Notes under the pieces: model-generated | The model's input: only the letters and a program-made list of their open reading frames with translations | Told to the model about the DNA's origin: nothing | Database searches by the model: none | Position numbers and translations under genes: made by a program | Origin: Mediterranea sp. An20 | GTDB lineage: Bacteria > Bacteroidota > Bacteroidia > Bacteroidales > Bacteroidaceae | Direction of reading: 5' to 3' | NCBI RefSeq assembly: GCF_002160055.1 | Contig: NZ_NFJV01000005.1 | Coordinates: 1-64,000, forward strand | Length of the DNA: 64,000 nt | Shown: positions 1 to 6,923 of the stretch, one piece after another | Layout: each line of letters opens with the position of its first letter | How positions within the stretch are numbered: the first letter of the stretch is position 1

Positions 1-118
1 CCTGGTTCGATAATTATAGAAGGCTCTGTCGGAACTACGAATTCACGTTCGATTCGGCTGAGGAAATGGTGAAACTGGCGGCGATAAGAATGTTACTGAG
101 CAAAATTTAAACAGGCTC
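1..118 (+). mobile_element. 3' end of an IS5-family-like insertion sequence
   Basis: The window opens inside an insertion sequence. The transposase frame ends at 110 and the element appears to end at 118 with GGCTC; its reverse complement starts GAGCCTGTTTAAATTTTGC. The transposase stop codon lies inside this terminal repeat. The same end is found, with one mismatch in 23 positions, at the left end of the 173-bp element at 5584, which is the main evidence for the boundary. The left end of the IS lies outside the window, so its target duplication cannot be checked. Confidence 0.75.
3..110 (+). CDS. IS5-type transposase, C-terminal 35 residues (partial)
   Basis: In frame from base 3 the sequence reads a peptide beginning WFDNYRRLCRNYEF and ending AAIRMLLSKI before TAA at 108-110. 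A Tyr-Arg-Arg-Leu plus Arg-Tyr/Asn-Tyr-Glu stretch followed by a final helix is typical of the last part of DDE transposases of the IS5 group. The catalytic core lies upstream of the window, so activity cannot be judged. The IS boundary eight bases after the stop fits this reading. Confidence 0.75.
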   Translation, partial: WFDNYRRLCRNYEFTFDSAEEMVKLAAIRMLLSKI

Positions 119-5460: not shown

Positions 5461-5583
5461 GTTGCTCTTTTTGTTAACGCGGCGAAGATACAATTTTTTA
5501 GGCATACGTGACGAATAATCGGCTGTTTTTTCTTCTGATTTCTTTGCCATAGGCAATTCTTTTTCTAACTTTGTCCGTCATTA

Positions 5584-5756
5584 GAGCTTGTTTAAATTTT
5601 GCTCAGCTTTATTTTGAGTGCTGTTTCCGAGGATATTTTTCCGGTGTACTGAGGAACGTAGCGGGCTACGTGACGAAGTATGCCGGGAAAAGAGACCGGA
5701 AAGAGGCTCAAAAGAAGCTGAATATAAATCTAAAAGAGGAAAATTTAAATAGGCTC
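5584..5756. mobile_element. 173-bp foldback MITE related to the IS at the window start
   Basis: The element runs from GAGCTTGTTTAAATTTTGC at the left to the inverted GGCTC end at 5756. It is flanked by TTA on both sides (5581-5583 and 5757-5759), consistent with a target duplication. Its first 23 bases match the reverse complement of the IS end at 96-118 at 22 positions. The interior is also largely self-complementary, with TTTTGAG/CTCAAAA, TTTCC/GGAAA and ACGTAG/CTACGT pairs, so the whole element can fold into one long hairpin. It has no gene. It ends 42 bases before dnaN. Confidence 0.8.
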
Positions 5757-5798
5757 TTAATAGTGAAGCAAGAATCAAACATATAATAATAAGAAGAT

Positions 5799-6923
5799 AT
5801 GAAATTTGTCGTTTCGAGTACGGTGCTTTCTTCTCATTTGCAGGCTGTCAGCCGCGTGATAAATTCTAAGAACGCACTGCCTATTTTGGATTGTTTCCTT
5901 TTTGAATTACAGGATGGTACTTTGTCGGTGACAGTGTCTGACAGTGAAACTACCATGGTGACTTCTCTGGAAGTAGTGGAGAGTGATTCTGACGGCAGAT
6001 TTGCCGTAGTGGCCCGTACTTTGTTGGATGCTTTGAAAGAGATTCCTGAACAGCCTCTGACTTTTGAGGTGAATTTGAATACTCTGGAAATAACCGTGCA
6101 GTATCAGAATGGAACATATAATTTGGTGGGACAAAATGCCGATGAATTTCCTACCCCTGTCGTATTGGGCGATGGTGCAGTGAAGGTTGAGATGGATGCT
6201 CAAGTGTTGTTGAACGGTATTAATCGGGCTCTTTTTGCTACAGCCGACGATGAACTGCGTCCTGTAATGAATGGTATCTATTTTGATATTACAGCTGAAG
6301 ACATTACGATGGTAGCTTCTGATGGACATAAATTGGTGCGTTGCAAAACATTGGCAGCACATGGTAGTGAGCGGGCTGCTTTCATTTTGCCTAAGAAGCC
6401 TGCTAATCTGATAAAGAATCTTTTGGCCAAGGAGCAGGGAACGGTGCATCTGGAGTTTGACGACCGTAATGCGTCTTTTATATTGGAGAACTATCGCATG
6501 GTATGTCGCTTGATAGAAGGACGTTATCCGAACTATAATTCTGTTATTCCTAAGAATAATCCCAATAAAATTACGGTCGACCGTTTGCAACTTATTGGTG
6601 CTTTGCGCCGTGTGTCTATTTTCTCTTCTCAGGCGAGCAGCCTTATCAAGTTGCGCATGGAAGGAAACAGAATTGTTGTCTCTGCCCAGGACATCGACTT
6701 CTCCACTTCGGCTGAAGAAATGCTGGTTTGTCAATATGCAGGAACTCCTATGAGTATTGGTTTCAAATCGACTTTCCTGATTGATATTCTTAATAATATT
6801 TCTGCTGAAGAAGTGTTTATAGAATTGGCTGACCCTTCTCGGGCAGGTGTAATTATTCCTGTGGAGCAGGAGGAGAACGAAGATCTTTTGATGTTGCTGA
6901 TGCCTATGATGTTGAATGATTAA
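5799..6923 (+). CDS. dnaN: DNA polymerase III beta subunit (sliding clamp)
   Basis: At 374 residues this is the normal length for a beta clamp and carries its three repeated domains. It begins MKFVVSSTVLSSHLQAVSRVI and has family phrases such as LPILDCFLF, PVMNGIYFD, ASDGHKLV and IEGRYPNYNSVIP. It ends with the clamp-like LMLLMPM stretch before a short tail. The clamp encircles DNA and tethers polymerase III and repair enzymes. It leads a same-strand run with an exonuclease, coaBC and recN. The MITE occupies most of its upstream region, so its promoter must lie in or very near that element. Confidence 0.97.
   Translation: MKFVVSSTVLSSHLQAVSRVINSKNALPILDCFLFELQDGTLSVTVSDSETTMVTSLEVVESDSDGRFAVVARTLLDALKEIPEQPLTFEVNLNTLEITVQYQNGTYNLVGQNADEFPTPVVLGDGAVKVEMDAQVLLNGINRALFATADDELRPVMNGIYFDITAEDITMVASDGHKLVRCKTLAAHGSERAAFILPKKPANLIKNLLAKEQGTVHLEFDDRNASFILENYRMVCRLIEGRYPNYNSVIPKNNPNKITVDRLQLIGALRRVSIFSSQASSLIKLRMEGNRIVVSAQDIDFSTSAEEMLVCQYAGTPMSIGFKSTFLIDILNNISAEEVFIELADPSRAGVIIPVEQEENEDLLMLLMPMMLND

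Follow-up and report, generated by a model that had tools for sequence, protein, structure and literature searches.

The window analysed here comprises 64,000 nt of Mediterranea sp. An20 (contig NZ_NFJV01000005.1, positions 1–64,000) and carries dnaN, which encodes the DNA polymerase III beta subunit (TIGR00663), at 5799–6923 on the + strand. A native dnaN promoter motif of the -33/-7 type, TTTG-N19-TAACTTTG, is intact at 5543–5573 (+ strand, strict motif), and between this motif and the gene lies a MITE of 173 bp at 5584–5756, whose structured strand is the + strand, co-directional with dnaN. The MITE is bounded by a left terminal inverted repeat at 5584–5600 (+ strand, one mismatch to GAGCCTGTTTAAATTTT) and a right terminal inverted repeat at 5740–5756 (− strand, one mismatch), and an apical hairpin with a tandem-GA internal loop, TGAGGA...TGACGA, is located at 5650–5676 (+ strand). 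TTA is present on both sides, as the preliminary description had stated, and the sequences at 5581–5583 and 5757–5759 are the left and right copies of the target duplication. The rest of the dnaN leader, at 5760–5798 (+ strand), was predicted by RNA folding to be largely unpaired.

The element is short, contains no transposase gene and has terminal inverted repeats in common with an insertion sequence (IS); ORFs of 71 and 65 aa traverse it. The reported match of its left end to the IS end at 96–118 was confirmed, with 23 of 24 bases pairing between 5583–5606 and 96–119, and the MITE's own ends (5583–5604 and 5736–5757) showed 86% pairing over 22 bases. Self-folding, which had also been claimed, was evident both in the DNA fold of the MITE (−37.8 kcal/mol, z −8.2, equalled by 0 of 200 shuffles) and in the RNA fold of the MITE with its flanks at 5579–5807 (−82.7 kcal/mol, z −9.9, 0 of 200 shuffles). 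The IS that had been placed at the window start does share this end, but only its last 118 bases are present because the contig starts within it: positions 1–118 (+ strand) hold the final 35 codons of the transposase gene and the terminal repeat (96–118) of an IS5-family IS. In its size, IS-like ends, target duplication, multiple copies and empty sites, the element showed every MITE feature examined.

Two other features were observed in the window. The gene at 486–1658, whose product has a phage-integrase SAM-like domain, adjoins a tRNA-Ala gene at 1792–1866, an arrangement like that at the border of an integrated element. At 2214–2279, where no gene was called, there are three adjacent 22-nt direct repeats with 73–77% identity to the first.

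The dnaN promoter, leader and empty site

It had been proposed that the MITE occupies the place of the dnaN promoter, which might then be derived from the mobile element. The native motif was found intact, ending 10 nt before the MITE, which is thus downstream of the -7 box. The consensus of the Bacteroides -33/-7 promoter has been described (PMC7366714), and the strict form TTTG-N17-21-TAnnTTTG was present in 21 of 28 dnaN upstream regions, including that of the window. The distance from the end of the motif to the dnaN ATG was 225 nt in the window compared with 48–84 nt in 20 relatives; without the 176 inserted bases it is 49 nt, within the range of the relatives. The native promoter is therefore at its ancestral distance, and a mobile-derived promoter is unsupported. 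When both strands of the MITE were scanned, it lacked the strict -33/-7 motif and also any -7 box, and a sigma-70-type scan gave one weak site, on the − strand. Although the MITE lies upstream of dnaN, and Correia elements of Neisseria can create promoters according to the parts of the literature drawn on here, we regard a new dnaN promoter supplied by the MITE as highly improbable.

In 18 further genomes, the strict motif was present in 10, at least a -7 box within 100 nt in 16, and an element, by BLAST, in one. A complete MITE was absent from the dnaN leader in 44 of 45 relatives; for 27 of the 45, absence was judged by promoter distance (20 genomes) or by the lack of an end-like 17-mer in 260 nt rather than by BLAST. 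The preliminary description had staked its account on the existence of other copies and of an empty site in related species. Neither contrary outcome was observed, because copies occur in many genomes and the site is empty in relatives. End-like 17-mers (≤3 mismatches) were found in the dnaN upstream regions L044, L481 and L486; that of L486 (genome G125), which lies beside TAA, may be a decayed MITE end, and those of L044 and L481 may be due to chance.

A second insertion was found in genome G088, identified as Bacteroides rodentium JCM 16496, where a 172-bp element of another subfamily, with ends like GAAACTGTTTTGATTTT, lies in the dnaN leader in the same orientation as the window copy, approximately 34 nt downstream of an intact dnaN promoter. 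The left copy of its duplication has lost one base. Since position and subfamily differ, the two insertions were taken as separate. The relative G155 carries the site uninterrupted (GGTTTC-TAA-GACG). In G155 itself, however, the bases preceding TAA are similar to an element end at 14 of 17 positions and may stem from an older fragment or reflect an excision. Preferential targeting of dnaN was considered and rejected: the genomes examined contain approximately 300 matches, and a single recurrence among so many goes little beyond what chance would give (0.06–0.13 by a rough estimate).

The 173-bp MITE thus almost certainly sits in the dnaN leader. This leader is predicted to be approximately 215 nt long and to open with a 173-nt hairpin, and the MITE would account for most of the initial ~175 nt of the mRNA. 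The alternative put forward in the preliminary description, that dnaN may depend on an RNA structure, could hold in a modified form, given a body that is a conserved fold of one strand. In B. thetaiotaomicron, leaders have a median length of 32 nt and 13.5% exceed 100 nt, in the data drawn on here (PMC7366714), by which standard the predicted leader is long. The predicted fold keeps the dnaN start region nearly free of pairing.

Copies, mobility and distribution

Further copies of the MITE were found in the same genome and in many others. In the Mediterranea sp. An20 genome (3.84 Mb, 88 contigs) there were at least 41 matches at E ≤ 0.001, with 40 of 66 candidates scored; this figure includes matches to IS ends and copies matched a second time on the reverse strand. 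Eleven matches, the window copy included, span at least 158 of 221 query bases at 87–100% identity. For sample 1, 150 loci from 15 genomes of 3 genera gave 140 MITE places and, after removal of duplicates and of places with <130 aligned bases, >5 mismatches in either end or flanks <10 nt, 117 distinct copies with ends and flanks, among which two orthologous pairs (L006/L110 and L178/L132) remain. For sample 2, 133 of 184 rows were kept after opposite-strand duplicates and matches <120 nt were dropped, with the composites of genome G578 counting as two rows each. Exact 3-bp duplications were present in 91 of the 117 complete copies (TTA 50, TAA 40, TCA 1), compared with 48.6 expected from random pairing of the observed flanks. 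Identical or near-identical copies within several genomes show that the family has moved recently.

The tail of the cognate IS, with 116–117 identical bases, ends six other contigs of the same assembly. Complete related ISs in other species are approximately 854 bp long and encode one transposase of approximately 253 aa. The transposase of the relative in G003 belongs to the IS5 family (NF033580, 1.2e-58; also PF13340 and PF01609), and the 35 residues known for the window IS are identical to it at 32 positions. The MITE thus bears the marks of IS5-family mobilisation, namely the ends of an IS5-family IS, typed through the transposase in G003, and a 3-bp duplication; we take the transposase to be of the IS1031-like group. 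The MITE and the IS have only the 17–23 bp ends in common, and the MITE was therefore rejected as an internal deletion of the IS. The IS tail occurred in 4 of 8 MITE-bearing genomes compared with 8 of 52 others (Fisher p = 0.043, from a hand count and as co-occurrence only). Near a contig end (L012, G000:C31), an apparent left end of the cognate IS follows a copy of the MITE at a TTA in its 3′ part, as though the IS had inserted into this copy.

In the genus, 45 of 158 genomes matched at E ≤ 0.001, some through the ends alone, with five candidates scored per genome; by count of the listed rows, 29 genomes had a match of at least 100 query bases. The family sample gave matches in 18 of 201 genomes and 9 of 30 genera, again some through the ends alone. 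A covariance model (R1) built from 14 copies and used with strict filters and seven candidates scored per genome matched 21 of 393 genomes and 17 of 206 genera in the order sample, where the weakest matches may be chance; the model can be used to find copies in further Bacteroidales genomes. In the distant members examined, the IS5-like ends were mostly kept, in varied forms. A scan for the apical hairpin gave at least 116 stretches, and the 80 titles among the matches listed, judged by their organism names, are of Bacteroidales, a result with no bearing on other phyla. Spread by plasmids was not indicated, with no MITE match among 72,556 plasmid records. Among 50,697 phage records there was one partial match, MT838136.1 (L493), an unverified 5.6-kb scaffold labelled Bacteriophage sp.; the ORFs beside the partial copy look bacterial, resembling a SulP-type transporter and rubrerythrin, and the record is perhaps a mislabelled bacterial scaffold.

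Several arrangements were observed at individual loci. At L006/L110 (also L203 and L158), the MITE follows directly after a stop codon in a 2.5-kb segment that is 95% identical between the An20 genome and G074, whose dnaN genes are only 70% identical; horizontal transfer of this segment is possible. An element lies at the same gene pair in G020, and one lies upstream of a related right-hand gene in G143. In G578, all five loci taken (L243 and L316–L319) have two oppositely oriented copies of the fold in a composite of approximately 320 bp. At 1181–1580 of the reverse complement of L241, which comes from another family of the order, there are repeated hairpins with a similar GAGG...GACGA apex and no evident IS ends.

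The fold of the body and the direction of the copies

The + strand folded better in 115 of 117 copies of sample 1, which were oriented by BLAST and not by fold, with a mean of −69.3 kcal/mol compared with −50.3 kcal/mol, and DNA parameters favoured the same strand in 114 of 117. In sample 2, it folded better in 132 of 133 copies, a count that is partly circular because these copies were found and oriented by the family model; among the 93 of 133 copies with only GCGGGC or only GCCCGC, all 93 folded better on the GCGGGC strand. When 14 representatives from 13 genomes were aligned, the consensus was a hairpin of 60 pairs, 16 of them with compensated changes. Compared with 500 shuffles, uncorrected for relatedness, none of which reached the observed values, doubly changed pairs (16 versus a mean of 9.4), paired cells (96.7% versus 90.7%), doubly changed cells (59 versus 19.3) and the covariation score (0.261 versus 0.147) were all increased, and a fifth measure, further pair types, was unremarkable (reached by 113 of 500). 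Slid controls gave 3–7 doubly changed pairs compared with the 16 observed.

Such a pattern might arise in an ordinary MITE with a decaying palindrome, whose structure and strand bias would be functionless by-products of ancestry and hairpin-templated repair. Foldback elements are common, quasi-palindrome repair can yield compensated pairs, and the lack of a relatedness correction in the shuffle control also favours this reading. However, templated repair or symmetric mutation predicts equal numbers of G-U and A-C pairs, whereas the inner pairs over the 14 representatives comprised 514 Watson–Crick, 61 G-U, 4 A-C and 22 other pairs and one gap, and columns with only G-U outnumbered those with only A-C by 19 to 2 (p = 2e-4). 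Even in the structure predicted for the minus strand, the plus strand kept 22 G-U cells compared with 7 A-C cells. Among single-copy changes from the genome consensus, 129 led to G-U and 52 to A-C; in 3 of the 13 genomes counted (G145, G080 and G315), recent changes were opposite and favoured A-C. Several genomes in this count hold more than one subfamily, and G255, with an unmapped consensus, was left out. A strand-symmetric neutral process is thus disfavoured, because it would produce G-U and A-C in equal numbers. Furthermore, the mean column identity of the apical loop (0.991) was as high as that of the ends (0.989) and exceeded that of the inner paired columns (0.844) and of the unpaired 3′ stretch (0.676), which the ordinary-MITE reading would not lead one to expect. 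We consider that reading improbable.

The apical internal loop, whose two sides are TGAGGA and TGACGA, can be interpreted as a G-C pair flanked by two tandem sheared G-A steps. A second loop, read as tandem G-A, had a column identity of 0.816 and was not specially conserved. GAGGA-N16/17-GACGA was exact in 73 of 117 copies of sample 1 and 35 of 133 of sample 2, and present with at most one mismatch a side in 111 of 117 and 76 of 133, respectively; on the complement, no exact match was found in either sample. Taken together, the base changes suggest that the MITE body is very probably maintained as the fold of one strand across many species. The MITE was rejected as a known RNA family, with no Rfam 15 match over it above the gathering score: in the window no family matched over it at E ≤ 1, and seven related loci gave only sub-threshold miRNA/UTR matches, plus one tRNA outside the element.

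Sample 1 sites comprised 57 tandem, 20 divergent, 18 convergent, 4 intragenic (3 of which lie no more than 29 nt from a called start), 10 incomplete and 8 short sites; in sample 2 there were 66, 24, 20, 9, 7 and 7, respectively. Gene calls around the copies were made by codon scoring and are still rough. An orientation bias towards tandem genes was rejected as evidence, since the 38 same to 19 opposite of sample 1 was not replicated in sample 2 (34:32), and the bulk of copies thus has no host-level preference for + transcription. Boxes of the -7 type within 25 nt pointed into the left end in 12 of 117 and 9 of 133 copies and into the right end in 2 of 117 and 2 of 133, where nearby TTA/TAA sites predict approximately 3.4 (sample 1) and 4.2 (sample 2) per side. 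This asymmetry was first noticed in sample 1, whose 12 include the orthologous pair L178/L132 and also the window copy. It recurred in sample 2 alone (p = 0.033 one-sided, 0.065 two-sided), which is suggestive. As orientation elsewhere is random, selection seems to act on source or transcribed copies and not on each insertion.

The selected molecule might instead be single-stranded DNA. During replication or transposition the + strand could form its hairpin, and source copies that keep the hairpin would spread better if the transposase or a host factor recognised it. The random orientation in sample 2 (34:32) fits selection on mobility and not on transcription, DNA parameters favour the + strand too (114 of 117), G-T and G-A pairs contribute to the stability of single-stranded DNA as well, and identical copies occur in several genomes. 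However, IS5-family DDE transposases act on double-stranded ends, and the -7 boxes at the left end would be left unexplained. In addition, the Y1-type transposase domain PF01797, which marks single-strand transposition, had no match in the An20 genome (assembly 96% complete); it was found in 35 of 157 genus genomes, of which only G143 belongs to sample 1. A RAYT/REP single-strand partner for the MITE was likewise rejected, as no Y1 transposase was found in its own genome. We regard selection on single-stranded DNA as unlikely. Because promoters adjacent to copies tend to be directed into the + strand, and the An20 genome yielded no Y1 transposase, the selected molecule is probably RNA.

A trans-acting small RNA of the MITE itself, for example one acting on the cognate IS, would accord with selection seemingly on source copies and not on each locus. 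No promoter or terminator was recognised inside the MITE, and no variable guide-like segment was present across the aligned representatives, and we judge a small RNA of this kind quite improbable.

We therefore favour the reading that a MITE lies in the dnaN leader, that its body is a maintained one-strand fold, and that RNA is the molecule that counts, with a probability of roughly 0.6 for the whole statement. Under this proposal, a non-autonomous IS5-family element with 17-bp ends and a 3-bp duplication would have transposed into TTA behind the dnaN promoter and lengthened the leader to approximately 215 nt, with the 173-nt hairpin first. A copy in the + direction behind a host promoter would be transcribed and fold as one long hairpin that leaves the original leader and start of the downstream gene almost unpaired, and for this reason the insertion would be tolerated even before an essential gene. 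The hairpin may also set the life of the mRNA, as RNase III does on Correia elements, and the MITE may alter dnaN expression. More tentatively, and as a combination that we hold to be possible but rather doubtful, an ancient double tandem-GA RNA may travel in an IS5-type MITE as a leader RNA that is compatible with, or useful to, host leaders, with its + fold kept through transcribed source copies and with at least two independent settlements at dnaN, perhaps a third in G125.

MITEs are usually regarded as a pair of ends with filler between them. Should this filler be a conserved strand-specific RNA spreading through a bacterial order, MITEs would be vehicles of portable regulatory RNA, one of which would sit in the leader of the replication clamp gene of Mediterranea sp. 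An20. A conserved folded RNA in copies across many Bacteroidales would be unusual for a mobile element that seemingly makes no protein, and the locus offers a testable case of a mobile element before an essential gene without evident harm.

Comparison with known systems

No description of this MITE family was recognised in the open-access literature, although one may exist; the novelty lies in the MITE body, with its apparently maintained one-strand fold. CGTC- and GTAG-tagged REPs are likewise short, mainly intergenic palindromes, some with an unpaired CGTC tag, and the apical hairpin starts with CGTC on the − strand; CGTC repeats reportedly have no dedicated transposase and are present in Bacteroidetes too (PMC3733652, as far as drawn on here). 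However, REPs are described in the same sections as 20–40 bp long and without IS ends or target duplication, and CGTC stems begin almost invariably with AT pairs, which the apical stem here does not.

The IS5-type MITEs of Porphyromonas gingivalis (BrickBuilt, MITE239, MITE464/PgRS and MITE700) also belong to Bacteroidales, have the ends of IS5-family ISs and occur in around 10–20 copies, and BrickBuilt forms long stem-loops (PMC4596501, in the parts drawn on here). In contrast to the family described here, their end sequences are different (the bodies were compared by description only), BrickBuilt and 464/PgRS contain 23- or 41-nt tandem repeats, and the duplications of BrickBuilt vary in length, according to the same parts of that source.

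The Correia (NEMIS) elements of Neisseria are MITEs of similar size with other ends, by description, in another phylum, and strand-specific covariation of the body, which is present here, was not seen described in the sections of PMC2649163 drawn on. Unlike Correia elements that create promoters, the MITE here contained none that could be found. At mtrCDE, as those sections report, a transcribed Correia element separates the native promoter from the genes and is a substrate for RNase III cleavage (PMC2649163). Correia elements thus provide a precedent for a MITE that is located between a promoter and its gene and is processed by RNase III.
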